Below are positions 45,932 to 64,000 of a stretch of DNA of 64,000 nt, piece after piece. The DNA comes from Planctomyces sp. SH-PL14. GTDB taxonomy: Bacteria > Planctomycetota > Planctomycetia > Planctomycetales > Planctomycetaceae. Position 1 is the stretch's first letter; the number at the start of each line of letters is the position of its first letter. Under the pieces are notes generated by a model that was not told where the DNA came from, did not search any database, and worked only from the letters and a program-made list of their open reading frames with translations. The translations under genes and the position numbers were made by a program. Location: contig NZ_CP011270.1 of assembly GCF_001610835.1 (NCBI RefSeq), positions 8,059,256 to 8,123,255 of the forward strand, read 5' to 3'.

Positions 45932-47971
45932 TTAGACCATCAGACGTTCGAGCTGAGCGGCAAACTCGCGGCCCGTCTGGAAGCGGTCCTGCGGAGCCCG
46001 CGCGAGGGCCTTGGCCATGAACGGATTCCAGTCCGTCGGGATCGCCGGATTCAGCTCGCTCGGACGGGGCCAGTTCGCTTGGGAGGCCTTGGTGAGGATC
46101 TCGACCTGGTTCTGACCGTCGAACGGCCGCTTCCCGGTGATCGCCTCGAACAGACACGCGGCGAGGCCGTAGGTGTCGCATGCCGGGGTCAGATTCCCCG
46201 CCCCCTGCAGAACTTCCGGCGCCTGATACTGGTATTCCCCCATGTCGAGCCGGCCACGGGTGATGTCGTACAGCGTCTCCATCACCTCGCCTCGGGAGAG
46301 GACAAAGTCCCCGAGCTTCGCCTGCTCGTCTCCGTCGAACAGGATGCAGCTCGGATTCACGTTGCGATGCAGGATCTGCTGCTCGGCCGAGGCCTGGAGC
46401 GCCTGGGCGATATCGAGCCCCGCCTGACGGACCATGTCGAGCGGGAGCGGCCCCTTCGTCCGCGCGATCCGGTCCCGCAGGCTACCGTTCGGCAGGAACT
46501 CGCTCGCCAGGAACCAGATCGTCATGCCGCTGCGGCGGGTCATCCCGCCGCGGTACATCTGGACCACGTTCTTGTGCTTGATCCGACCCGCCTCGGGGAT
46601 CGCCCGCAGGAAGCGGCGGATCTGGTCGTTCTGGTCCTGGAATTCCGCCGGGAAGATCCGCAGCGCGACCTTCTTGGTCTCGCCCGACTTCCGCATCCAC
46701 CGCGCGACGTACAGGTCCCCTCCCCGGCCGTGGTGCAGCCGCTTCAGGAGATCGAACCGCGGAATGATCCCGGTCCCCTCGAACTCGAGATTGACGAGGA
46801 AGGAGTGCTTGCCGAAGCGGAGCTCGTCCCCGCGGACGACCCGCTGCGGCCCCTCGACCTTGCGGCCATTGAGGAACGTCCCGCTGGGATGGAAGAGGTC
46901 GTACACGTGCCAGTCGAGGAACTGGCAGGCGAGGAGGGCGTGCCGCGTCCCGATGTCCGGATCCTGAATCGGCAGGCTCGCCTGCTCGACCCGGCTGACG
47001 AGCACCATCCCGTCGCTCTCGTAACGGAAGGAACGGCTGGGGGGCCGCCGCTCCGTGAGATGCAGCGCCGGCGGGACGCGGCGGACGGGGATCGCATCGG
47101 CCGGCGCGGTTTTGGCAGACGCCTCGGGGGCGAACGGCGGGAGGACGCGGCGGGAATGGAGTCCGAGCTGGCGGAGGTGGTTGCCGAGATCGCGGGCGGT
47201 CTGGAACCGCCGCCGCGCCGGAGTCTTGACGATCAGGCCGCTGACGACGTCCGCCAGCGAGGTCGCGACGTCCGGAACCTTCGAGGCCCAGTCTTCGAGT
47301 TCCGCCTGCTCGTTGGCGTGCCAGACGAGCCACCGCCGGCCCCGCTCCTGCTCGTCGGCGGAGAGGCCGAAGAGCTTGGGGAAATTCGTCCCGGCGATCA
47401 TCTCCAGGGCGAAGAAGCCGAGGCAGTACAGGTCCGAAACGGGGCTCGGACGGCCGAAGCGGTTGTCGATGATCTCGGGGGCCTCGTAGCGGACCTGCCG
47501 CCACATCTCGGCGCTGGGATAGCCGGTCTCGTAGCGGTAGCCGAGGAAGTCGCCGAGGCGCGTCTCTCCTCCCGGATCGACGAACACCGTCTGGGCGTTG
47601 ATCCGGCCGTGGACGTAGCCCCGGGCGTGCAGGCTCTCCAGCCCCTCGACGCACTCCAGCAGGACCCGCGCCACCATGTCGTTCGACAGCGGGCCGTGCT
47701 TGTCGACGAACTGCTTGATGGTGCACTGGCTGTCGTCGAAAATCAGGAGCCCCTGGCCCGGGTCGGCGTGCCGGACCGGCAGGATCCGGGGATGTTCGAC
47801 CGCGCGGAGGAACTCCACTTCCTGTTCCAGCCGCTTCTGGTGGGAGGGGTTGGCCCGCGCGTCGTCGGTCAGCTCCTTGATGAGAAACCGCTGTCGCGAC
47901 TGGGGATCTTCGCCGCGCCAGATGCGCCAGACGGAGTTTTCGACGAGGGTGTGAAGTGTGCGGAAATCCAT
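45932..47971 (-). CDS. Pseudokinase - FHA - pseudokinase protein of the Tad locus
   Basis: 679 residues, no membrane segment. Domain 1 (about 10-270) is a protein-kinase fold with Lys32 kept, but HRD is HGR (121-123) and DFG is DFL (141-143). An FHA domain follows (about 318-395; SGTFLNGRKVEG, RGDELRFGKHSFLV). Domain 2 (about 403-675) has Arg438 in place of the VAIK lysine, HRN (535-537) for HRD and DFV (555-557) for DFG. Both therefore lack the catalytic base. The FHA core should bind phospho-threonine. As the last gene of the Tad run it probably works as a phospho-dependent scaffold for pilus assembly. Confidence 0.9.
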   Translation of the reverse strand: MDFRTLHTLVENSVWRIWRGEDPQSRQRFLIKELTDDARANPSHQKRLEQEVEFLRAVEHPRILPVRHADPGQGLLIFDDSQCTIKQFVDKHGPLSNDMVARVLLECVEGLESLHARGYVHGRINAQTVFVDPGGETRLGDFLGYRYETGYPSAEMWRQVRYEAPEIIDNRFGRPSPVSDLYCLGFFALEMIAGTNFPKLFGLSADEQERGRRWLVWHANEQAELEDWASKVPDVATSLADVVSGLIVKTPARRRFQTARDLGNHLRQLGLHSRRVLPPFAPEASAKTAPADAIPVRRVPPALHLTERRPPSRSFRYESDGMVLVSRVEQASLPIQDPDIGTRHALLACQFLDWHVYDLFHPSGTFLNGRKVEGPQRVVRGDELRFGKHSFLVNLEFEGTGIIPRFDLLKRLHHGRGGDLYVARWMRKSGETKKVALRIFPAEFQDQNDQIRRFLRAIPEAGRIKHKNVVQMYRGGMTRRSGMTIWFLASEFLPNGSLRDRIARTKGPLPLDMVRQAGLDIAQALQASAEQQILHRNVNPSCILFDGDEQAKLGDFVLSRGEVMETLYDITRGRLDMGEYQYQAPEVLQGAGNLTPACDTYGLAACLFEAITGKRPFDGQNQVEILTKASQANWPRPSELNPAIPTDWNPFMAKALARAPQDRFQTGREFAAQLERLMV

Positions 47972-48053: not shown

Positions 48054-48854
48054 CTAGTCGTACTCCAGGAGCTTCTGGCTGGCGATCCGTTCCGCCATCT
48101 GAAGAACCTCCCGGATGGAGTCGTCGTTGACCCCCGCCGGGGTCTGGGCGCCGGTGGCGGGGCCGAAGACCTCAACGAGGTCCCGAGCCGTCTCCCGGAC
48201 GCGGCGGTAGTCGCTGGCCGCGGCGGGCCGGTCCATCCGCGCCTCCGCCAGCCGGGCCGAGATCAGGCTGTCGGAGAGCTGCCGCCACTCGACCTCGACC
48301 CCCCGCCGCTGGGCGATGTTCCGGAACGTCTCGTCGGCGAGGGTTTCGAGGACCCGCTGCGATTCACGCCGCATCGCCGAGACCGTGAGCGGCGCCGTGC
48401 CGCTCCGGCGGTTTCGAGTGGCTCCCGCTCCCGCCAGGACCATCAGGGCCACGACGACCAGGGCCCCGGCGATGACCCAGCTCGTCTGGACGGTCCAGCG
48501 GTTCCGATCGGCGTCGGTCTCGATGACCCGCCGCTGGTCCTCGGGATCGATCACCGAGTGGTCCGTGATCAGGACCAGCGAGGTGACGGCGGAGGGCTGC
48601 AGGCTCCCCTGGTCGTACCAGACGCGGCGGTCGTTGATCGCCAGCGCCTCGCCGTCGAGCCAGATCGGATAGCGGAGCATGTTGATGACATGGTACGCGG
48701 CGTTCCGGTACTCGACGACCACGTGCCCCTGGAGCTGGGTGTCACTGAGCCGGATGTCGGCGTCCGCCTCCGCCCCGATCAGGACCCGCTGCCGCTGGAC
48801 GATGAACTCGCGTCCGGCGTCGGGCCCGTTCGTCACTCGAATTTTCGTCGCCAA
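48054..48854 (-). CDS. FHA domain protein with a transmembrane helix
   Basis: 266 residues. An FHA-like N-terminus (about 5-90: NGPDAGREFIVQRQRVLIGA, DADIRLSDTQLQGHVVVEYR) with SDTQL in the position of the usual SRxH motif, so phospho-binding may be weak. One TM helix at about 123-145 (WVIAGALVVVALMVLAGAGA), then a helical C-terminal part (MRRESQRVLETLADETFRNI). Lies between TadC and the pseudokinase gene, so it is likely a membrane partner of the latter. Confidence 0.85.
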   Translation of the reverse strand: MATKIRVTNGPDAGREFIVQRQRVLIGAEADADIRLSDTQLQGHVVVEYRNAAYHVINMLRYPIWLDGEALAINDRRVWYDQGSLQPSAVTSLVLITDHSVIDPEDQRRVIETDADRNRWTVQTSWVIAGALVVVALMVLAGAGATRNRRSGTAPLTVSAMRRESQRVLETLADETFRNIAQRRGVEVEWRQLSDSLISARLAEARMDRPAAASDYRRVRETARDLVEVFGPATGAQTPAGVNDDSIREVLQMAERIASQKLLEYD

Positions 48855-48966: not shown

Positions 48967-49872
48967 TCACAACGAAAGGGTGTTGCGGGCGGCCAGGATG
49001 AACGGCGTCACGACGATCAGGAGACACGCCAGCATGACCAGCAGGCCGGGCCATGTCACGTGGACCTTCGCTTCCTCGGCGGCCCGCTCCAGCCGCTGCA
49101 GCCGCCGCTGCTGGAACTGGTCGGCCAGGGCGCGGAGGCTCGCTTCGACCGAAGTCCCCCGCTCGAGCGACGTCCGCAGGACGAAGGCGACCTCGATGAA
49201 GTCGTTGTCCCGCGTCCGCTGCGCCCAGGCGGTGAGGGCCCGGAGCGTATCTTCCCCGCGGCGGACCATGCGGAGGAGTTTCATGAACTGCGTCCCGAGC
49301 GGATGGTCGCGGTTCTCGGCCGCCGCCGTCTCGAAGGAGTCCATCATGTCGGTTCCCCCGGATTCCATCATCAGGGCCATCAGCTCCAGGGCCGACGGCA
49401 GGCGGGCCCGGGCCCGCCGCCGCAGATAGTCGGCCCGCTTCCCGTCCCGGCGGAGCCACATCCACCACAAGGCCACGCTCCCAAGCGCGATCGCCACCAG
49501 GGCAGTGATCGCCCCCCACTGCATGACGATCATCGCCACGAGCGCCGCGCCGCAGGCGACGAGCACCGACTGCGCGAACCGCAGCGCCATGTGCTCCGGC
49601 GCCGTCAGGACGTTCCCTTCGAACTGGTCGAGGTCGAGATCCAGCTTCCGCACCCGTTCGGGAAACCGCGTCTCGAAGAACGGGGCGAGACGCCGGATCA
49701 GCGGCTCGAACAGCGCGAACAGCCGCTTCTGGCGGCACTCGGCCCGCCGCTGGAGTTCCCCAGGTCCGAGGGTTTCGGCCGAGGGACGCTGTGGGAGCAG
49801 GCCGACGGCGTCGGCCGCCAGCCAGCCGGCCAGGCCCCCGAAGCAGGCGGATGCGATAATCTCCGCGGTCAT
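48967..49872 (-). CDS. tadC: Tad pilus inner-membrane platform protein TadC
   Basis: 301 residues. T2SSF-type protein with TM helices near 10-25, 95-140 (VLVACGAALVAMIVMQWGAI, LVAIALGSVALWWMWLR) and 275-300 (LLVMLACLLIVVTPFILAA). The cytosolic T2SSF part reads PSALELMALMMESGGTDMMD and FIEVAFVLRTSLERGTSVEA. GGAGAG precedes the ATG. It follows TadB by 33 bases, the usual TadA-B-C order. Confidence 0.9.
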   Translation of the reverse strand: MTAEIIASACFGGLAGWLAADAVGLLPQRPSAETLGPGELQRRAECRQKRLFALFEPLIRRLAPFFETRFPERVRKLDLDLDQFEGNVLTAPEHMALRFAQSVLVACGAALVAMIVMQWGAITALVAIALGSVALWWMWLRRDGKRADYLRRRARARLPSALELMALMMESGGTDMMDSFETAAAENRDHPLGTQFMKLLRMVRRGEDTLRALTAWAQRTRDNDFIEVAFVLRTSLERGTSVEASLRALADQFQQRRLQRLERAAEEAKVHVTWPGLLVMLACLLIVVTPFILAARNTLSL

Positions 49873-49905: not shown

Positions 49906-50757
49906 TCAGTCCACGATCGCGAGGAGCCAGAAGGCCCATCGGACCGCGACGTAGGTCAGGAGGGCCACGATGCAGATCGCGATCTGTCCCGAGAAGGTCG
50001 AAAACAGGAGCCCCATCGAGGCGGGATCGATGAGGGAAAACATCAGGGCGAACAGGGCGGGAAACAGGGCGAGCACGATCACCAGGGCCCGGCCCCCGGC
50101 GGTGTTCGACTCCCGCGTCCGCTCGACCCGCTGCATCTGCTCCAGGCTGTCGCTGATCTTCTCCATCGCGACGGTGATCTTCCCCCCCTGCCGCTCGGTC
50201 GCCAGGAGGGCGATCACGAACAGCGAGACGGCGTCGACGTCGATCCGTTTTTTGAGAGCGGTCAGGCTCTCCCGCAGCCCTTCCCCCCGGTCGAACGACT
50301 GGACGCACTCCATGAGCTCCTCCCGCAGTGGCGAGCGGGATTCCCGCGCGACCGCCCGCAGTCCTTCCGGCGTCGAGAGCCCCGCCCGGAACTGGGCCGA
50401 GAGGGCCCGCGCCGCGGAGACGATCTGGTCGCGGAACTTGATGCGGCGGTTGTCGAGCCGGAGGCTCAGGACGATCCGCGGCACCTGGACGAGGAGCGTC
50501 CCCGCCAGGACCGCGACCGGCGGCATCTTGAGCGTGAAGGCGATGAAGAGGACGAGGAGGGCCGTGAAGGCCCACCACCACCGCTGCCAGATCCGGATCG
50601 TCTCGAGTTCGAGCCCGAGCTGCGTCGGCTGCGCGGTGAGGCGGCGGGTGCTCACGGTGCTGATCCAGTCGATCAGCTGCATGACCGGGCCCGAGATCGC
50701 CATGGCGGTCATGCCGAACAGGACGGAGGCGACCATCTGCCACGACTGGGCGTTCAT
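49906..50757 (-). CDS. tadB: Tad pilus inner-membrane platform protein TadB
   Basis: 283 residues; the ATG at 50757 overlaps the TadA stop (ATGA). TM helices at about 65-85 (AFTALLVLFIAFTLKMPPVAV) and 235-280 (ALVIVLALFPALFALMFSLI, IAICIVALLTYVAVRWAFWLL). T2SSF motif: QIVSAARALSAQFRAGLSTP, DVDAVSLFVIALLATERQGG. Longer in-frame reading into the ATPase gene is just overlap. Works with TadC as the platform rotated by TadA. Confidence 0.9.
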   Translation of the reverse strand: MNAQSWQMVASVLFGMTAMAISGPVMQLIDWISTVSTRRLTAQPTQLGLELETIRIWQRWWWAFTALLVLFIAFTLKMPPVAVLAGTLLVQVPRIVLSLRLDNRRIKFRDQIVSAARALSAQFRAGLSTPEGLRAVARESRSPLREELMECVQSFDRGEGLRESLTALKKRIDVDAVSLFVIALLATERQGGKITVAMEKISDSLEQMQRVERTRESNTAGGRALVIVLALFPALFALMFSLIDPASMGLLFSTFSGQIAICIVALLTYVAVRWAFWLLAIVD

Positions 50758-52724
50758 CGGCTCCCTCCCCCGTCGTGATCGGCGTGCCGCGGACCGACAT
50801 CGAAAAATGTGTCGAGCGTCAGTCCCCCGTCCATGATCAGCTCGTCGATGAAGGTCGGCAGGAAGCCGGTCGGACGGAGCTGCCCGTCCTTGGACCGCTG
50901 GAAGATCGGTTTGAGCCACAGCCCGCCGGCGTCGGGGTCGACGCCGACGACCTCCGTCACCTCGGAGATGATTCGCCTGCGGATCCGGACTTCGGGGTTC
51001 AGGGGGTCGGTCACGATCTCGCTCGACAGCTGCACGATCAGGTCGAGGGCCGACGCGACCTGCCGGTGGATCGATTCGACCGGGAGGTTCGTCCCCTCGT
51101 TCTGCTGGCACATCATCTCCAGTCGCAGCACGACGTCCCGCGGCGTGTTGGCGTGGATCGTCGTCATCGAGCCGTCGTGGCCGGTGTTCATTGCCTGGAG
51201 CATGTCGAGCGCCTCGCCGCCGCGGCACTCCCCGATGATGATCCGGTCGGGCCGCATCCGGAGGGCGTTGACGACGAGCGCCCGGATGTCGATCCCCCCC
51301 ACCCCTTCGACGTTCTTCTGTTTCTTCTCGAGCGGCACGACATGCAGCCGCTGGATCCGCAGCTCCGCCGTGTCCTCGATGGTGATGATCCGCTCCTTCT
51401 CGGGGATCTCGGCGCTGATCGCATTCAGCAGCGTCGTCTTTCCCGAGCCGGTTCCGCCGGCGACCAGGATGTTGCACCGCAGCCGGACCGCGGCGGCCAG
51501 GAAGTCCCGGGCCACCTGGGTCATGGCCCCCTTGCGGACGAGGTCGTCGCAGGTGAAAGCCCGCTGCGGAAACCGCCGGATCGTGAGGCATGGGCCGCGG
51601 ACCGTCAGCGGCTTGATGATGGCGTTGATCCGGCTCCCGTCCGAAAGCCGGGCGTCGACCAGCGGCGTCGAGGTGTCGATCTTGCGGTGCACCTGCGACA
51701 CGATCCGCTGGATGATGTCTCCTACGTCCTTTACGAACCGCCGGCCGGAGTTCTCGATCTGGCCGTCCTTCTCGATGTAAATGTTCTCCGCGTCGTTCAC
51801 CATGATTTCGGAGACGTTGGGATTGTCGAGGAGGTCTTCAAGGGGACCGAGACCGAACCAGATGTCCTTGACGTCCTTCTTGATCTGCTTCAGGAGCATG
51901 TAGCGGCGGGTGTCGACCCGGACGCCGGCGAGGAGCTCGTTCCACGCGTCCCAGTAGTGCATCTCCAGCCGCCGCACCTGCCGCGAGAGGTCCCGCTCCC
52001 GATCGAGGGCGAGCCGCTGCGTCAGCCGCATCAGGAGCCCTTCGATCTCCCGCTCCCGCTCCGGCTGGAGCGTCCGCTGCAGCGACCAGGGTTTGCTGGA
52101 CGCCGACGAGTCGTCCGCCTGTCCGGAGCGTTCGACCAGCCGCCGCAGGAGGAGCGAGCGGGCACACAGGCCGGCAAAGTGGTCGCCGACTTCGCTGCTG
52201 GTGAGGTCGTCTCGCGGCAGATCCGAACGCTGCGAGGCGAGGTGGTCCAGCTCCCGCTCCAGCGTGAGGAGCGCGTCTTCGCTGTACCGCTCGGTGTCCC
52301 CCGGGTCGAGGACGTTCCGGTTGACCGTCGTCAGGAGCTCTCGGTGGAGCTCGTCGACGAGGGACGAGCACCGCCGGTCGAGGTCGGCGGTCCCTTTGCT
52401 GTCCGCCCCGATCTCATCCCGGGCGTCGAGGTGGACCGTCAGCGTGAACGGGTGGATCTGGATGTTGCAGTTGTTGGTCAGCGGCGCGGAGCTGTTGACG
52501 AGCAACGGCTGCTCGTTCACGGCGCAGTTGTCGACCCGGGCGCAGAACCGCCACCCCGTGCCGTCGCCGAAGTTCTGGATCAGCCCCGCCTCTTCCTGGA
52601 CGTAGTTGCTCTTGAGGCAGACGTCCATGCGGGGATGGCTGCCGATCCGGATCGGGTTCTTGCCCGAGGGGAGGACGACGTTGTCCACGGCGCCGGTGAT
52701 GTCGTTGCTGGCCAGGATCCGCAT
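50754..52724 (-). CDS. tadA: Tad pilus ATPase with FHA-like N-terminal domain
   Basis: 656 residues; GCGGAGACACCGC precedes the ATG at 52724. N-terminal FHA-like domain (about 1-100: VVLPSGKNPIRIGSHPRMDV, AVNEQPLLVNSSAP), a helical linker (110-275), then a TadA/CpaF secretion ATPase (about 280-600): Walker A GGTGSGKT (423-430), Glu450-Asp451, RMRPDRIIIGECRGGEALDM and GHDGSMTTIHAN. FHA on the pilus ATPase links motor activity to phosphorylation. The stop overlaps the tadB start. Confidence 0.92.
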   Translation of the reverse strand: MRILASNDITGAVDNVVLPSGKNPIRIGSHPRMDVCLKSNYVQEEAGLIQNFGDGTGWRFCARVDNCAVNEQPLLVNSSAPLTNNCNIQIHPFTLTVHLDARDEIGADSKGTADLDRRCSSLVDELHRELLTTVNRNVLDPGDTERYSEDALLTLERELDHLASQRSDLPRDDLTSSEVGDHFAGLCARSLLLRRLVERSGQADDSSASSKPWSLQRTLQPEREREIEGLLMRLTQRLALDRERDLSRQVRRLEMHYWDAWNELLAGVRVDTRRYMLLKQIKKDVKDIWFGLGPLEDLLDNPNVSEIMVNDAENIYIEKDGQIENSGRRFVKDVGDIIQRIVSQVHRKIDTSTPLVDARLSDGSRINAIIKPLTVRGPCLTIRRFPQRAFTCDDLVRKGAMTQVARDFLAAAVRLRCNILVAGGTGSGKTTLLNAISAEIPEKERIITIEDTAELRIQRLHVVPLEKKQKNVEGVGGIDIRALVVNALRMRPDRIIIGECRGGEALDMLQAMNTGHDGSMTTIHANTPRDVVLRLEMMCQQNEGTNLPVESIHRQVASALDLIVQLSSEIVTDPLNPEVRIRRRIISEVTEVVGVDPDAGGLWLKPIFQRSKDGQLRPTGFLPTFIDELIMDGGLTLDTFFDVGPRHADHDGGGSR

Positions 52725-52838
52725 GCGGTGTCTCCGCTCCACGCGGTGCATCGAGCTGGTCGGGAATGGGTCGCTCCGGCGCGCTCGCCGGAGGGGCCCC
52801 TGCCATACAGAGCGGGGGCTGGCTGCCGGGACCGGGCG

Positions 52839-53612
52839 TTACGACGGAGGAGGCTCAGTCGTCGACGGAGCAGCAGGCGAAGTGGCGGCCGGAGGGGGAG
52901 GCGGACTCGGCCGGGGGACGTTCGAGACCGGCGTTGTCATTCGGCGCTGCACTTCCGGCGACAGGATGACGAGGGCCAGGATCTTTTCGGGCTGGTTGCG
53001 GTCTCCCCGGGCGGCGCTGATGAGCCGCAGGGCGGTTGGATCGAGACCGCCCCCCGTTTTCCCGTCATAGGGGACGGCGATCGTCAGGATCTTGGCGTTC
53101 GCCCGCCGCTCCCGTTCGTCGCTCGCCTCGCTGACCTGGTTCCCGACGCCGACGACCCGGAACGGCTGGACCAGTTCCGTTTTCCCGTCGGTCTGCTGCA
53201 GAAGAAAGCCGATCCAGACCCCGAGCTTGAGCTGGCCGTCCGCATAGTTCACCTGGTCGAGCGAGACATGGACACCGACTTCGTTGGTGGCGAGCGCGGG
53301 GGCCTCCTTTTCGGGCGACTGCATGTCCGCCAGCGAGAACAGTTCACCCCGCTTGACGTCCCGCTTGAGCTCGCTGAGGAGCACGGCCTGCCCGCGGTCT
53401 CCCCACGGAACGAAGGTCCGGAACAGGGACTCGGGACCCTGGACGGAGACTTCCGCGAGGTGGTTTGCCCGCAGGACGGTCCCCGCCGAAAGGTCTTCTG
53501 AGGCGGCGGTCAGCCGGATCGTTTCGGCATCCTGCTGCACGGCCATGTGGTGCGCGAACGCGAACGCCAGAAAGAACGCCGCGGGAACAATCAGCTTCAA
53601 CGGACCGCTCAT
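52839..53612 (-). CDS. cpaB: CpaB/RcpC-like pilus assembly protein
   Basis: 257 residues; AGGAGCTCCC precedes the ATG. N-terminal anchor (LIVPAAFFLAFAFAHHMAV), then a SAF-like domain (TAASEDLSAGTVLRANHLAE, PWGDRGQAVLLSELKRDVKR), a beta-rich region and a Pro-rich tail. RcpC/CpaB proteins act in the periplasm between platform and secretin. No secretin gene is seen next to it. Its start overlaps the stop of the preceding gene by 4 bases. Confidence 0.85.
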   Translation of the reverse strand: MSGPLKLIVPAAFFLAFAFAHHMAVQQDAETIRLTAASEDLSAGTVLRANHLAEVSVQGPESLFRTFVPWGDRGQAVLLSELKRDVKRGELFSLADMQSPEKEAPALATNEVGVHVSLDQVNYADGQLKLGVWIGFLLQQTDGKTELVQPFRVVGVGNQVSEASDERERRANAKILTIAVPYDGKTGGGLDPTALRLISAARGDRNQPEKILALVILSPEVQRRMTTPVSNVPRPSPPPPPAATSPAAPSTTEPPPS

Positions 53613-55926: not shown

Positions 55927-57636
55927 CTAGTGAGTCCGGGCTGCCGGCTTGTCGAGCAGGCTCCGGTCGAGCAGCTTGCGGATATCGCCGAACTGCCAGC
56001 GTGCGGCGTCTTCGATCCGGGTCGTCGGAACGAGCAGGGGCTTCCAGTTGAGGACGACCTTCGGCTCCGGCGCCCGGTCCCGATAATACGAGACCTCCAC
56101 GTCCTTGCCCGGCTTGGGATCCGCCCCCCCCTTCCACTCCGGCACGCGGGTCTCCGCAAAGTTCAGCGTGTCCCAGCCGATCTGAGCCTGAACCGTCTCG
56201 GTGCCCGAGCCGCGGGTCGTCTGGTTCGCGTTGTAGATCATTGCCTGGGCGAACGCCCCGAATCCGTCTTTGTGCGGAGAATCGAAGAAACGGGGGGCGG
56301 CGATCTCACGCCGCTCGTGCTGGGCGAAGCCGACGATGGCGAACAGCTCCTCCGCCCGCTTGCTTCCGTTCGAGTACGACCACTTCTCCTCACCCTTGTT
56401 CCCTTCCAGGACGTCCAGATCTTTCATGATCAGGAGCTGGATGCCGTTCTCCTTGGCGCGGGTCGTCATCTCGATGATGTCCGACTGCGTGAACTCGACG
56501 TAATACGCCTTGAACCGGCTGAGCCAGAGCGCATCCTCGCCGAACTGGAGCATCGGCAGCCGCCAGTGGTGCACCCAGGGGACCGCCGCCCGGGCCAGCT
56601 GGGACTTCCAGACTTCGTTCTTCGGAAACGTCTCCTGCTCCGCGACGACCGGGAGCTGCAGCAGCGGATAGGTCGGCGACTTGAAGTTGGGGAAGAGCGA
56701 GCCGTCGACGTCGTGATACTTCGCCGTCTCGTCGACGACCTCTCCCATCCGCAGCGGGACGGTGAACCGGGCGGCGTTGCTGTACAGGTTGACGACCTTG
56801 AGCACCTTGTCCCGGACCGTCGTGATCGCCAGCTTCAGGGCGCCGAACGAAGCGACGTCCTCCATGGCGTTCAGGACCTTCCACTCCGCGAGCCCTTCCT
56901 CTTCGAAGGCCCGGCAGGCCCCCATGATGATCCCGGCGTAGATCTTGATGAGCGGCCCGATGTACGGAACGATCTCTCCGAGGAGGTAGAGCCCGCCCGC
57001 TCCCGCATGGACCTCGTAGGCGTAGGCCCCCACGTTCTTCAGATGCAGCCGGGACTTTCCGATGGCCGCCTCCACGACGATGTCCTTGTCGAACCCGTCG
57101 TCGTAGGTCTCCGTGCGGGGGCGAAGGAAATCGGGCGCGGTCGACGTGGTGGCCCGAGCCAGCTGGTAGAACGTCGTGACGGCGGTCCGGACCTTGGTGG
57201 GGGTCCGGTCGCTCGAGTTCCCCTCCTCCATGTCGTCCCCGCCGAGCGCGTGGTAGAGGATCGTCAGGGCGTGCATCTCGCCGATGAGATGGTTGGCGGC
57301 CGTGATGGCGTTCATCCCGCGGGCCATCTGGGTCGCCGCGGCCTCGGTGATTCCGTCGGCGGCGTTCTGTGTTTCGAGCTTTCCCCGGACCGCATGGACC
57401 ACGTTCACCATCGCGCAGAGCGAGAGCACGAGCGTAAGGAGGACCACCAGGCTGAGGATCGAGAGCTGGCCCTCTTCGTCTTCGTGGACGTCGGTGAGCC
57501 GCCGGGCAATCCAGCCGGGGAGGCCGGGGCCGTTCTCCTGATCCGCGGGCGGAGTCCCCAGTGGAGACCGCGGCGTCCGGGTGTCAGCGGCCGGGCCCGA
57601 GGCGATCAGCGTGTTCGCGTGCTGTGAATGTGTCAT
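55927..57636 (-). CDS. TadG-like membrane-anchored protein
   Basis: 569 residues; GGAGGCGACC precedes the ATG at 57636. After a 55-residue polar start, a TadE/F/G-type segment (EEGQLSILSLVVLLTLVLSL, CAMVNVVHAVRGKLETQNAA) with DGITEAAATQMARGMNAITA, the TadG pattern. A large exported domain (about 120-560) follows, with no clear von Willebrand motif. It probably forms the pilus-associated surface protein. Longer start at 57675 has no ribosome site. Confidence 0.85.
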   Translation of the reverse strand: MTHSQHANTLIASGPAADTRTPRSPLGTPPADQENGPGLPGWIARRLTDVHEDEEGQLSILSLVVLLTLVLSLCAMVNVVHAVRGKLETQNAADGITEAAATQMARGMNAITAANHLIGEMHALTILYHALGGDDMEEGNSSDRTPTKVRTAVTTFYQLARATTSTAPDFLRPRTETYDDGFDKDIVVEAAIGKSRLHLKNVGAYAYEVHAGAGGLYLLGEIVPYIGPLIKIYAGIIMGACRAFEEEGLAEWKVLNAMEDVASFGALKLAITTVRDKVLKVVNLYSNAARFTVPLRMGEVVDETAKYHDVDGSLFPNFKSPTYPLLQLPVVAEQETFPKNEVWKSQLARAAVPWVHHWRLPMLQFGEDALWLSRFKAYYVEFTQSDIIEMTTRAKENGIQLLIMKDLDVLEGNKGEEKWSYSNGSKRAEELFAIVGFAQHERREIAAPRFFDSPHKDGFGAFAQAMIYNANQTTRGSGTETVQAQIGWDTLNFAETRVPEWKGGADPKPGKDVEVSYYRDRAPEPKVVLNWKPLLVPTTRIEDAARWQFGDIRKLLDRSLLDKPAARTH

Positions 57637-57714
57637 GGTCGCCTCCAGGCCGGCGTTCTCGCGCGGCCGGCACACCGCCTGTCACGGCGGTCGATTTCGG
57701 AACCCGGGCAGGTC

Positions 57715-58449
57715 TCAGAAGGCCCGGTAGTCGATTCCCAGCTTCTGGTCGGGCGTCTCGGGGCACTCAAGCGTCATCCGGACGGACGACTTGATCGGAT
57801 ACTCGTAGGGATACTTGCGGTCGGGATCGAGCAGCCGCGCGGCGCCGGGTGTGAACAGCGGAGCGCGGAACTCGACGTCGACCCACGCCTCCTCGCCGTG
57901 CCGCCGGTTCGGGATCTGCGGCGTGATCGTCGTGCGGGCGGAGACGTTCTTCACATGGTTGATGAGCTTCTCGCGGCGGACGGTCTCGCCCGAGAATTCT
58001 TCGAGCTGGTCGACATAGCTTTCGGCGTGCTTCTGGGCGTTCCCCGGGGGCGTGCCGTTCTCACTGCCGGAGGCGTTCGACGAAATGACGAACGGGGAGA
58101 GGGCGGTCACGACCGCCTGCCGGACCCGATCGTCGCGCAGGTTGCCCGGTTGCATCGTTTCCCAGACGACCAGCGAGCGGCTCCCGGCGTAGGCGGCGTA
58201 GACGGTGCCGACCTTCGCGAGCACGAGCATCGTCGTCTCGGCGATCGTCACCAGGATCAGGGCATAGACCGGCATCGTGATGACGAACGACAGGGTGTAG
58301 GAGACCCCCTGCTCGCCCCGCAGCTCAGCCCAGCGGAACCGCGAGCGTTTCTTCACGAGCCGCCAGATCACCACGACGCCGAGCGTCAGGCTGATGAGCC
58401 ACAGGGCCCAGATCCCTTCGAAGCCGTCGATAAAGGAGTGGATGGTCAT
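57715..58449 (-). CDS. TadE/F-like protein with an extra N-terminal helix
   Basis: 244 residues. First helix IWALWLISLTLGVVVIWRLV, then a TadE-type segment GEQGVSYTLSFVITMPVYAL, ILVTIAETTMLVLAKVGTVY, and an exported domain (ESYVDQLEEFSGETVRREKL, EYPIKSSVRMTLECPETPDQ). No Shine-Dalgarno is seen before the ATG, which is odd, though the first helix and spacing support it. It ends 78 bases before the large TadG-like gene. Confidence 0.8.
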   Translation of the reverse strand: MTIHSFIDGFEGIWALWLISLTLGVVVIWRLVKKRSRFRWAELRGEQGVSYTLSFVITMPVYALILVTIAETTMLVLAKVGTVYAAYAGSRSLVVWETMQPGNLRDDRVRQAVVTALSPFVISSNASGSENGTPPGNAQKHAESYVDQLEEFSGETVRREKLINHVKNVSARTTITPQIPNRRHGEEAWVDVEFRAPLFTPGAARLLDPDRKYPYEYPIKSSVRMTLECPETPDQKLGIDYRAF

Positions 58450-58765: not shown

Positions 58766-59560
58766 TCACGTCAGCCGCAGCAACAGTTCCAGGGCGGTGT
58801 GGCCCGGCCAGGCGAGCGGCACGCCGATCGCAACCACGGTTCCCAGCAGGAAAAAGGGGGCCAGAGGGATCTTGAACTTGAGCCATCCGGCCACCAGTTT
58901 TGCCGCCATCTGCCGTGAATCGGACGAGTTGCGGGCGAGGGCGGAGGAAAGCAGGGGCACCGCCACGCCAGCCCCACGCCAGGCGACCCATCCCACGGAG
59001 AAGAGGGCCGCAATCAGCATGGTGATCAACCAGATCTCGGCCGCCATTCGCCAGCCGAGATAGCATCCGAACATCGAGATCAGCTTCACGTCGCCGGCCC
59101 CTCCCCGGAACAGGAGGAACAGGCACAGGGCTCCGCTGAAGCAGATCGAGACTCCGGCCATGGATGCGAGGAGGCCGATCCCGCCGAGCCACTCGGCCAC
59201 CGGTCCCGAGGAGAATGAGACCATGGCGTTGAGCAGCAGCCCGTAGACGATGGCCGGATACATCGTCCAGTTGCGGATCTTTCGGCCCCTCAGGTCCGTC
59301 ACGCAGGCGACCAGCAGAGCGATCGCCAGGAACTGACCGGAGAGCCCGCCGGCACCTGGAGGGAGGGGACCCCAACTTCCCCAGCCGCTCCAGGTCCAAC
59401 CGGCTGGAATCGCCCCAAGACTCCAGGCCAGCGGCACGAGCCAGGCCACCACAGCAGGATTCTTGAAGAGCGGCGGGTGGGAAGTGGCTTCCACCGTTCG
59501 CTCCTGCATCGGCGACAGGATTGCCGTGTCGCCGGCCGGGATGGGTGTCGTGTCGGTCAT
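58766..59560 (-). CDS. Type IV prepilin peptidase (A24, TadV/CpaA-like)
   Basis: 264 residues. After a polar start of about 30 residues, helices carry the two A24 aspartates: Asp89 in ACVTDLRGRKI and Asp157 in GGAGDVKL (GxGD). It cleaves Flp and the TadE-like pseudopilins. The ATG at 59560 overlaps the Flp stop (TGATG), so the two are coupled. The methylase domain of larger prepilin peptidases is absent, as is usual for TadV. It may also serve the DUF1559 prepilin, though no proof is visible. Confidence 0.9.
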   Translation of the reverse strand: MTDTTPIPAGDTAILSPMQERTVEATSHPPLFKNPAVVAWLVPLAWSLGAIPAGWTWSGWGSWGPLPPGAGGLSGQFLAIALLVACVTDLRGRKIRNWTMYPAIVYGLLLNAMVSFSSGPVAEWLGGIGLLASMAGVSICFSGALCLFLLFRGGAGDVKLISMFGCYLGWRMAAEIWLITMLIAALFSVGWVAWRGAGVAVPLLSSALARNSSDSRQMAAKLVAGWLKFKIPLAPFFLLGTVVAIGVPLAWPGHTALELLLRLT

Positions 59561-59796
59561 CACTTCCAGTTGAAGATGTTGTCCATGACTTCGCGGACCC
59601 ACTTCACGACGTTGCCGTTGCTGCCTTCGCCGGTGTCGGTCTCGTTGTCGGACTCGCCACCGAACATCTTATAGGCGAAGGCGAGGATGATCGCAGCGAG
59701 GGCGATGATCAGGACGACCTGCAGGGCCTCCATCCCGTCTTCATTCCGATGAACGCGACCCAGAACCCGCTTAGCCCGATTGATAATGCGCAACAT
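59560..59796 (-). CDS. flp: Flp-type major pilin
   Basis: 78 residues. Class IVb prepilin features: a basic leader (MLRIINRAKRVLGRVHR), NEDGMEALQVVLIIALAAII with cleavage expected after the Gly and Glu in the +5 area, then LAFAYKMFGG and an acidic Gly/Asn-rich tail (ESDNETDTGEGSNGN). AAGGGGACAGAGAA precedes the ATG. It opens the pilin sub-block of the Tad locus and would be the main pilus subunit. Confidence 0.9.
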   Translation of the reverse strand: MLRIINRAKRVLGRVHRNEDGMEALQVVLIIALAAIILAFAYKMFGGESDNETDTGEGSNGNVVKWVREVMDNIFNWK

Positions 59797-60387: not shown

Positions 60388-61533
60388 TTAGCGGTCCCGT
60401 GTTCGCAGCGCAAACAACTCCGCGCACAGCGGGGCCTCCGCTGCGTAGCCGTAAACATGCGCAAGACGTGCGTACGAACACGGCCGCCCCGTCGGAACCA
60501 ACGTCGGCGTCGCCTCCCGACCCTCCGTCACCCCGTCCGTCGACAACCGGAACAACTCCCGCACCCGATACCGCTCCTTCTGATCCAGCCCCCTGACCTC
60601 CGCAATCGACGTCACATGCCGCCGCCCTGTGTGCGCCCGCGTAATCTGCACCACAACGTGAATCGCACTCGCTACTTGCGTCCGCGCCACATACGCCGGC
60701 AACTGCACATCACTCATCAGGCACAACGTCTCCAGCCGGACCAGCGCCAGCTTCGGCGAACTCGCATGCACCGTCGTCAGCGACCCGTCATGCCCCGACA
60801 ACATCGACTGGATCAGATCCAGCGCCTCCCCCCGCCGCACTTCCCCCACCACGATCCGGTCGGGCCGCATCCGCAGCGAATCGACAAACAGGTTCCGGAT
60901 CGTCACCCCGCCCGTCCCGTTGGGAAGCGGAGCCCGCGCCTCCAGGTAAACGGTATGCGGCTGCTGCAACCGCAGTTCCGACGAGTCCTCGATGACGACA
61001 ATCCGCTCCGTCGGATCGATCGCCTCCGAGATGGCATTCAGCAGCGACGTCTTCCCCGTGCCGGTTCCCCCCGACACGACGAGATTCCGGTGCAGCTTCA
61101 CCGACGTCACCAGGAACTGCCGCGCCGCCTCGGTCATGCTGCCGAGGTCGACCAGGCTCTTGAGGGTGTGCGACGCGCGGCGGAACTTCCGGATCGAAAC
61201 TACCACCCCATTGCGTGAGCACGGTGGAATGATGACGTGAACACGGAACTGCTCCGGTTCCGGCAACCGGGCGTCCATGCTGTGATGCAGGTCGTCGACA
61301 CGGCGGTCGACGTACTCCGCCAGGTTGTTCACCGCCGCCAGCAGCACTTCTTCACTCGGGAAGCGGGCGTCGATCTTCTGGAGCTTCCCGCTCCGCTCGA
61401 CATAGATGTTGTCCGGCCCGTTGATCAGGACTTCCGTTACGCTCTCGTCCTCATACAGCACCTTGGCGACCGGCGCAAAGAAGTGCCGGAGCGAACGCTG
61501 ATAGATCTCGCGGCGGGTGATGAGCATGTTCAT
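60388..61533 (-). CDS. Second Tad-type secretion ATPase
   Basis: 381 residues, ATG overlapping the previous stop (ATGA). A compact TadA/CpaF protein: LYEDESVTEVLINGPDNIYV, RNGVVVSIRKFRRASHTLKS, Walker A GGTGTGKT (155-162), ERIVVIEDSSELRLQ, RMRPDRIVVGEVRRGEALDL and GHDGSLTTVHAS. It has no FHA part, unlike the ATPase at 50.8 kb. Two ATPases in one locus suggest separate extension and retraction or two assembly steps; this is inference. Confidence 0.9.
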   Translation of the reverse strand: MNMLITRREIYQRSLRHFFAPVAKVLYEDESVTEVLINGPDNIYVERSGKLQKIDARFPSEEVLLAAVNNLAEYVDRRVDDLHHSMDARLPEPEQFRVHVIIPPCSRNGVVVSIRKFRRASHTLKSLVDLGSMTEAARQFLVTSVKLHRNLVVSGGTGTGKTSLLNAISEAIDPTERIVVIEDSSELRLQQPHTVYLEARAPLPNGTGGVTIRNLFVDSLRMRPDRIVVGEVRRGEALDLIQSMLSGHDGSLTTVHASSPKLALVRLETLCLMSDVQLPAYVARTQVASAIHVVVQITRAHTGRRHVTSIAEVRGLDQKERYRVRELFRLSTDGVTEGREATPTLVPTGRPCSYARLAHVYGYAAEAPLCAELFALRTRDR

Positions 61534-62507: not shown

Positions 62508-63947
62508 TCAGAAGCGGTCCAGAACATAGATCTCCGCATCGATCTTACGAATCGTCTTCTCGATCGGAACCCGCTCCCGCGGCCGGACCGCCAGGACCGC
62601 CCGCCAGTGGTTCTGTGCCTTCCGCAGGAAACGGGAGTCTCCCCGTCCGAGCTGACGGTAGATCCGGGCGATGGCGCGATTGGCGAACGGGTCCTCGGGA
62701 GCCATCCGGTGGAGCAGCAGCATGACGCCGAGGCACAGGTGATCGAACCCGCCCGCGTCGCACATCCTGGCAAGTCCAATCAGGGCGCTCTGGCTCCACG
62801 GCGACTCCTCCAGGAGGGCCTTCATCTGCTGCAGCCCCAGGACGCGGCGTCCCGCCAGGAATTCCGCCTCGGCCCGGCTCTGGCGGCCCGCCTCCCGAAT
62901 CACGCGGACAATGTGGGGCAGTCCGCGGGCGGGGGGGCGATACAGGTTGTGCTGGGACTTGAGGAATCCGTAGACCTGCTGCGCGAGGTCGAACGCGTCC
63001 GGGTCGAAATGCTCCGGCGGCGACGCCATGTCGGCGAACGGCCGGGAGTGGACGATGGCGGAGGTGTCCCCCCGGGGGGCGGTCTCGACCGACGACCGCG
63101 ACGGCGGCTCCAGCGGGAACGACGGGAGAGGCGGCAGTGGTGTCGCGGCCGGTGCCGCAGACGAGGGCACAGGCGGCGGAGCGGCCGATGGAGCGACGGA
63201 CGGCATTGCGCCGGAGGCACTTTTCCGAGCCAGCTCCGGCGGCTCGGCAGGCGGGCGGGGAGGGAAAAAGTTCCGGCGGAAGAAGCCCGGCGAACTCGCC
63301 GCGGAATCGGTCGTGGAGGACGCGGTCGGCTGGAACTTCGACGAGGTCGAAGCGCTCGCCGAGAGCACTTCGATCACGACCCCCTTGGTCTCGATCCGGT
63401 CCCCCCCTTCCAGCTCCACACGGGTCCGCCAGTCCTTGCCGTTGTGCCGGCCGACCCGGCCCAGCAGATCGTAGAGGTACCAGTGGCCACGGGCGGGAAC
63501 GAGGAGCGAGTGCCGGTCGGGCGAATTCGCGTTTCGCGGCAGTACGATATCGCACAGGTGCGACGAGCCGATGAGCGTATCAAACGTCACATCGTGCGCG
63601 TTCGGAGCCATCCCCGGGGCGGAGACCGAGATCCGGCACTGCTGCGACATCCGCGGGAGAGCCGCCGCCGGACCGCTCGCTTCCGAAACCTGGAACGCGA
63701 TCGAGCCGACCTGAAGCTGATCGCCATCCCCCACCTCGTGGCGGGTCATGACGTCGACACGGTTGAGCTGCAGCTGCGTCGCCTGCAGGTTGTGAAGCAA
63801 CCAGCTGCCGCCGTAGCGGGCGACCACCGCCGCGAGCGGCGGCAAGCCCAGAACACGGCAATTGCAGTGAGGCGCGCTGCCGATCAGCATCACGTTGTCA
63901 CTGGCCAGGAACTTTCCCGGCTTGCCGCATTGCTCCAGTGTCAGCAT
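62508..63947 (-). CDS. Double FHA-like protein with C-terminal helical domain
   Basis: 479 residues; GAGGTGTTG precedes the ATG at 63947. Two FHA-like N-terminal domains: about 1-90 (VMLIGSAPHCNCRVLGLPPL, EVGDGDQLQVGSIAFQV) and about 100-200 (TLIGSSHLCDIVLPRNANSP, DRHSLLVPARGHWYLYDLLG). A Pro-rich linker precedes a helical C-terminal domain (VYGFLKSQHNLYRPPARGLP, HLCLGVMLLLHRMAPEDPFA, ANRAIARIYRQLGRGDSRFL). First gene of the Tad run in the window; the true promoter may lie beyond the window end. Confidence 0.85.
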   Translation of the reverse strand: MLTLEQCGKPGKFLASDNVMLIGSAPHCNCRVLGLPPLAAVVARYGGSWLLHNLQATQLQLNRVDVMTRHEVGDGDQLQVGSIAFQVSEASGPAAALPRMSQQCRISVSAPGMAPNAHDVTFDTLIGSSHLCDIVLPRNANSPDRHSLLVPARGHWYLYDLLGRVGRHNGKDWRTRVELEGGDRIETKGVVIEVLSASASTSSKFQPTASSTTDSAASSPGFFRRNFFPPRPPAEPPELARKSASGAMPSVAPSAAPPPVPSSAAPAATPLPPLPSFPLEPPSRSSVETAPRGDTSAIVHSRPFADMASPPEHFDPDAFDLAQQVYGFLKSQHNLYRPPARGLPHIVRVIREAGRQSRAEAEFLAGRRVLGLQQMKALLEESPWSQSALIGLARMCDAGGFDHLCLGVMLLLHRMAPEDPFANRAIARIYRQLGRGDSRFLRKAQNHWRAVLAVRPRERVPIEKTIRKIDAEIYVLDRF

Positions 63948-64000
63948 CAACACCTCGGTTCGGAATGCTGTGGCTCGATCCCGCTCCTGGACTGTCGACG

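Follow-up and report, generated by a model that had tools for sequence, protein, structure and literature searches.

In type VIIb secretion (T7SSb), the pseudokinase domain of YukC and the FHA region of the ATPase YukB are purified together (PMC9600267), and EssB is recruited by FHA2 of EssC (PMC9436818). The FHA domains of EssC have no phosphothreonine site, while some kinase-bearing T7SS variants retain it (PMC11217815). Tad motor ATPases with an N-terminal FHA domain are also known: KilF of Myxococcus xanthus (PMC8460266) and the 'class III' CpaF (PMC12019362). The locus described here ends a Tad operon with a gene for a single protein in which an FHA domain is flanked by two kinase domains, both predicted to be inactive, and this protein belongs to one Tad subtype, with which it is conserved and co-inherited.

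The window, by which we mean the whole stretch of 64,000 nucleotides of Planctomyces sp. SH-PL14 that was analysed, contains a minus-strand block with tadA, tadB, tadC and a gene that we call FHATM, and the last gene of this block (45932..47971, minus strand; 679 aa in a single open frame) encodes the protein in question. We refer to it as KFK, for kinase–FHA–kinase, and to its N-terminal and C-terminal kinase domains as K1 and K2. The sequence-only reading had already placed KFK at the end of a Tad operon, and this is indeed borne out by one T2SSE and two T2SSF proteins and an A24 peptidase: the block has the TadA ATPase, the TadB/TadC platform proteins and the prepilin peptidase of a Tad/Flp operon. 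All genes listed here are on the minus strand. FHATM (48054..48854) starts with an FHA-fold domain (Yop-YscD_cpl, slightly below the cut-off), followed by a hydrophobic segment that looks membrane-spanning. It is preceded by tadC (48967..49872) and tadB (49906..50760), both T2SSF by Pfam, and by the tadA/cpaF motor ATPase (T2SSE; 50754..52751), which has an N-terminal FHA-fold domain of its own. Beyond these lie genes for a cpaB-like protein (52839..53612; a weak SAF match, with a counterpart in three KFK operons), a TadE/G-like protein (55927..57675; Pfam Tad below the cut-off, with a counterpart in four KFK operons), a conserved protein of KFK-type Tad operons without a Pfam match (57715..58449) and the prepilin peptidase (Peptidase_A24 by Pfam; 58766..59602). 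Neither a secretin nor a Flp pilin was identified among the listed operon genes by Pfam annotation, and a promoter and terminator scan of the flanks of the KFK gene gave nothing above chance.

At the far end of the Tad cluster there are a further T2SSE ATPase, the shorter of the two, and one more FHA-domain protein (60388-61533 and 62508-63953). Divergent from this end of the operon, and beginning about 220 bases past window position 64000, there is a Hanks kinase with intact motifs (L246:3978-5189; HRDLTPRN, DFG), and an ECF sigma factor-like gene is close by.

There is little doubt about the folds of KFK. Pfam matches Pkinase over two stretches (whole-protein E 6e-40) and FHA (PF00498) at residues 329-387 (E 1e-7), and when the halves are run separately the best PDB sequence matches are StkP for K1 (2e-12) and PknB for K2 (1e-27). 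Structure prediction of both domains, which the sequence-only reading had called for, gives an AlphaFold2 model with kinase regions on either side of a β-sandwich (mean pLDDT 79.5); at a pTM of 0.44 the model does not define the mutual placement of the domains. The K2 model fits PknB with a Z score of 31.5 and an rmsd of 2.1 Å. Thus the profile, the PDB matches and the K2 structure identify a Hanks-type Ser/Thr kinase fold, and PF00498 together with the β-sandwich region identifies an FHA domain. No transmembrane segment is evident in the KFK sequence. JAK and EGFR-KDD appear as two-kinase PDB matches because in them two kinase domains share one chain; at an rmsd of 14-23 Å we reject them as close relatives. 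EssB and YukC are absent among the fold matches listed, which is uninformative either way, as active kinases fill these lists.

The residues tell a different story from the folds. K1 (residues 5-270; 47162..47959, minus strand) keeps β3-Lys32, αC-Glu51 and Asp141-Phe, with HGR for HRD and DFL for DFG. K2 (residues 403-677; 45941..46765, minus strand) has lost the αC-Glu and has Arg438 for the β3-Lys (VALR), HRN for HRD and DFV for DFG. These are the same motifs that had been read before. The FHA domain (residues 323-396; 46784..47005, minus strand) does have the GTFLNGRK core noticed earlier and keeps Arg327 and Asn368, but the Ser of its SRxH motif is Gly (GTRH). The combination of VAIK Lys, HRD Asp and DFG Asp expected of an active Ser/Thr kinase is missing from KFK and likewise from its orthologues, which suggests that none of these domains is an active kinase; the set of phosphothreonine contacts (GR, the SxxH Ser and Asn) appears incomplete in KFK as well, given the Gly.

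Is this perhaps a chance event in a genome with many kinases? The host genome (8.44 Mb) has 87 Pkinase matches, and the HRD Asp is present in 76 of the 81 kinase domains that were scored; K1 and K2 are two of the five exceptions. We consider the losses in KFK not to be due to chance, because so many host domains keep this Asp and because it is missing from both domains in all seven KFK orthologues. The other three host domains without it (L225, L230 and L232) have HGN, HRA and HRS, and the frame that contains L225 is 660 aa long and has a second kinase domain.

The orthologues come from profile searches that covered three overlapping samples, namely 398 genomes at the level of the class, 95 of Gemmataceae and 343 at that of the phylum; few candidates were scored per genome, so that all counts of KFK are lower bounds. 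A search for the same domain order beside tad genes had been proposed, and it returned at least six further full-length KFK genes, all in Gemmataceae, one of them in a Fimbriiglobus sp. MAG; a peptide-pattern scan of genome contigs found the Fimbriiglobus MAG only. The 343 genomes of the phylum sample yielded no KFK besides that of the host. The distribution is thus patchy: KFK was found in at least 6 of the 95 genomes of Gemmataceae, and within the family of the host in no other sampled genome. Most Tad systems can therefore do without it. The proteins are 679-712 aa long and 26-36% identical to the KFK of the window (seven-row alignment), all seven frames are uninterrupted, and many non-catalytic positions are invariant. 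In every case (7/7) the gene directly follows TadC–FHATM, with FHATM immediately upstream, and TadA lies further upstream in all six operons whose contig extends that far.

In the aligned columns the catalytic Asp is missing from 14 of 14 kinase domains. K1 keeps the β3-Lys, αC-Glu, DFG Asp-Phe, APE and αF-Asp in 7/7; at the position of its catalytic Asp the seven proteins have R, S, C, C, H, N and A, the DFG Gly is lost in all of them, the Gly-rich loop is poorly conserved and 6/7 lack the Asn of the catalytic loop. K2 has lost the β3-Lys (R or Q), the αC-Glu and the catalytic Asp in 7/7, has an intact DFG in one of the seven, and is eroded further in L047 and L048. Since the same residues are lost across all seven, the losses are old and retained, and only K1 still has the Lys–Glu pair together with the metal-binding Asp. 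Homologues with the KFK architecture and intact catalytic residues, which would have spoken against two dead kinases, were not found in several hundred genomes; by sequence, all seven full-length proteins are dead in both kinase domains.

What is the origin of the two halves? Elsewhere in the Planctomycetia, FHATM is followed by a gene for a single-kinase protein; in some relatives no kinase gene adjoins FHATM. The kinase in this Tad slot is intact (HGD, DFG, VA[IV]K) at nine loci (L093, L094, L095, L098, L102, L103, L108, L121 and L122), of which L094/L095 and L103/L108 are near-identical pairs. It is part-degraded in family f9 (L085, L089 and L091), with the β3-Lys and DFG lost. In the tree, K1 and the Tad-linked single kinases form one clade of 27 rows (100/100), within which the degraded Tad-linked kinases, including K1 of KFK, cluster at 94/80. 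This suggests that K1 is a Tad-linked kinase that has decayed, and given its intact single-kinase relatives in the same slot, it most likely became inactive secondarily. The C-termini of the Tad-slot kinases vary: Ig-like or cadherin-like repeats and TPRs in f9, and a caspase-like part in L093. Elsewhere in the host genome the Tad-linked kinase has an orthologue with intact motifs (L185:7938-10667; HGDVKPSN, DFGL), and the 19.5 kb analysed at that locus showed no Tad genes.

The other half probably has a different source. K2 clusters with FHA–kinase proteins at 97/96, and a wider search showed that many genomes across the class have this stand-alone family, often with several members per genome. 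Like KFK, its members have an FHA domain followed by an HRN kinase, and they form the sister group of the FHA–K2 half; unlike KFK, they are about 410-580 aa long, have no K1, and their β3-Lys and FHA site are mostly intact. In the 15 best-scoring members (L130-L144, e.g. L132, L138 and L144) the HRD Asp is Asn in 14 and Gly in one, although these are the top matches to a query that itself carries HRN and thus do not measure the share of pseudokinases in the family; their DFG is mostly DLM (GDLM), and the β3-Lys, FHA Arg and FHA Ser are mostly kept. In our reading, KFK combines two fused parts, a decayed Tad kinase and an FHA–pseudokinase. A second Tad-linked fusion, in G277 (L081:9421-13494), has the modules reversed: after FHATM come FHA, an HRN kinase, an HGA kinase, a caspase-like domain (Peptidase_C14) and TPR, and both kinases are catalytically dead by sequence. 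It is an independent-looking event.

If the kinases do not act as kinases, does the FHA domain still read phosphothreonine, as had been supposed? Here we depart from the sequence-only reading. The FHA Ser is kept in 2/7 and the Arg in 3/7 of the KFK proteins; in L045 the Ser, Arg and Asn are all kept. With the site degenerate in the KFK of the window and in most orthologues, and lost from TadA too, the FHA domain of KFK is probably not a phosphothreonine reader. The host TadA is an FHA-bearing ('class III') CpaF/TadA with the FHA domain in front of the ATPase. This FHA-fold domain (residues 10-99; 52455..52724, minus strand) has lost the phosphothreonine Arg and SxRH (IGS, QEEA). A model of residues 10-135 (pLDDT 85.8) matches the FHA domains of EmbR, GarA, MDC1 and FhaA, and PDB 3oun, the MviN(Rv3910)–FhaA structure, is among its matches. 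The TadA N-terminus also aligns with FHATM (hhalign E 4e-7).

The state of the TadA FHA site goes along with that of the kinase next door. Beside intact kinases the Arg is kept in 7/7 and the Ser in 6/7 (seven of the nine loci have a readable TadA), beside the part-degraded f9 kinases the Arg is kept in 3/3 and the Ser in 0/3, and beside KFK both are gone (0/6 each, in the six operons with a readable TadA). A Fisher test of TadA-FHA Ser against kinase state gives p 0.0009, a value that ignores relatedness and is not a usable probability. The TadA tree has two main groups, the degenerate one at 99/100, and therefore the link between TadA FHA and kinase amounts to roughly one deep contrast and not to a count of independent events. 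The Ser/His part is also gone in those operons of the second group in which no kinase is adjacent. The KFK operons form one TadA clade (100/99), with the same branching order as K1.

What could such a protein do? We propose that KFK is a phosphorylation-independent, non-catalytic cytoplasmic adaptor that would dock FHA-fold parts of the Tad motor, a reading to which we give about an even chance. Catalysis would have been lost first, with the kinase and FHA folds retaining their contact surfaces. KFK would bind the FHA-fold domains of TadA and/or FHATM, by which the motor ATPase would be tied to the membrane platform; K1 may perhaps still be a nucleotide-binding switch, as its β3-Lys, αC-Glu and DFG-Asp are kept, and K2 would be a pure scaffold. 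We suggest docking independent of phosphorylation by analogy with the T7SS variants, which show the same two states. Of the earlier idea that KFK assembles Tad proteins in a phosphorylation-dependent way, the Tad-linked, non-catalytic assembly role thus stands as the best reading, but the dependence on phosphorylation does not.

That dependence nevertheless deserves a fair hearing. An active kinase could phosphorylate the Tad proteins or KFK in trans, with the FHA domain of KFK reading the phosphothreonine. Candidate kinases with intact motifs are available (L246:3978-5189 and L185), the Asn and Arg are kept in the KFK of the window, all contact residues are present in L045, and the stand-alone FHA–HRN family retains its site. 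The Ser, however, is Gly in the KFK of the window and survives in only two of the seven, and the TadA site is lost in all six readable KFK operons, so in our opinion such a scaffold is unlikely. Far less credible is that K1 (or K2) moves phosphate or AMP via a rearranged active site. Some kinase folds without the HRD Asp are enzymes, SelO being one, and K1 does have the Lys, the Glu and the metal-binding Asp; but the seven different proteins offer no conserved alternative residue at the place of the catalytic Asp, and K2 has neither Lys nor Glu.

The same three residues of K1 could instead serve nucleotide binding without transfer, K1 switching the Tad machine with ATP while K2 and the FHA domain merely anchor it. 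Their retention in 7/7, despite the loss of the catalytic Asp and the DFG-Gly in 7/7, speaks for this; the poor Gly-rich loop and the loss of the catalytic-loop Asn in 6/7 speak against it, as does the fact that the working analogue YukC binds no ATP (PMC9600267). We think it rather improbable. As for a decaying kinase-derived pseudogene, the lost catalytic motifs and the further erosion of K2 in L047 and L048 are what one would see, yet seven full-length, syntenic copies with uninterrupted frames, a constant place in the operon, invariant non-catalytic positions and a branching that matches TadA lead us to reject it as hardly credible.

The adaptor reading fits into a wider, more tentative picture, in which Tad operons would exist in two states: an active kinase with a phosphothreonine-competent TadA FHA domain, versus joint decay of both into a phosphorylation-free joint, of which KFK would be the most derived form. 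We put this at somewhat below an even chance. If true, the two-state contrast arose independently in a machine unrelated to type VII secretion. Tad pili are widespread and serve adhesion and contact killing, and the coupling of their motor to cytoplasmic signals is poorly known. In the related lineages compared here, the kinase that accompanies the same operon ranges from active-type through half-decayed to a double pseudokinase, and the FHA domain of TadA changes to match; this makes it a testable question how a signalling pair of kinase and phosphothreonine reader turns into a permanent structural joint.

An FHA domain that binds a pseudokinase fold, as we propose for KFK, has a precedent in MviN(Rv3910)–FhaA of Mycobacterium; the contact there needs a phosphothreonine made by PknB, and it joins two separate proteins in cell-wall synthesis. 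Among Tad systems, the Kil/Tad-like apparatus and the 'class III' CpaF resemble the host in that their ATPase starts with an FHA domain and other FHA proteins are encoded in the cluster; the passages covered describe neither a kinase nor a pseudokinase–FHA–pseudokinase for them (PMC8460266, PMC12019362), and in the host TadA the phosphothreonine residues of the FHA domain are gone. In the titles, abstracts and passages covered in the open-licence literature, we found no report of a Tad operon that encodes a kinase or a pseudokinase–FHA protein, nor of a pseudokinase–FHA–pseudokinase linked to Tad, in agreement with the sequence-only reading. FHA-bearing CpaF/TadA is known; KFK is, provisionally, undescribed.

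The kinase-bearing T7SS with the TscD and TsdD kinases are comparable to the Tad operons with intact kinases: the kinase is intact and the T7SSd/e ATPase FHA keeps its site; unlike KFK, they have single kinases in the opposite active-site state, in an unrelated machine (PMC11217815). The closest parallel to KFK itself is EssB/YukC, also a pseudokinase encoded together with an ATPase whose N-terminal FHA domain has no phosphothreonine site, with the docking experimental there and proposed by analogy here. EssB has one pseudokinase, a transmembrane segment and an extracellular part, and belongs to a T7SS locus with WXG100 and an FtsK/SpoIIIE-type ATPase, whereas KFK has two pseudokinases, its own FHA domain, no evident transmembrane segment and a Tad (T2SSE) ATPase; with such an architecture and a Tad locus, we reject its membership in the EssB/YukC family. 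KFK may nevertheless work like EssB, and it would then be the second case, after type VIIb secretion, of a pseudokinase paired with a phosphothreonine-blind FHA domain on an export-motor ATPase.
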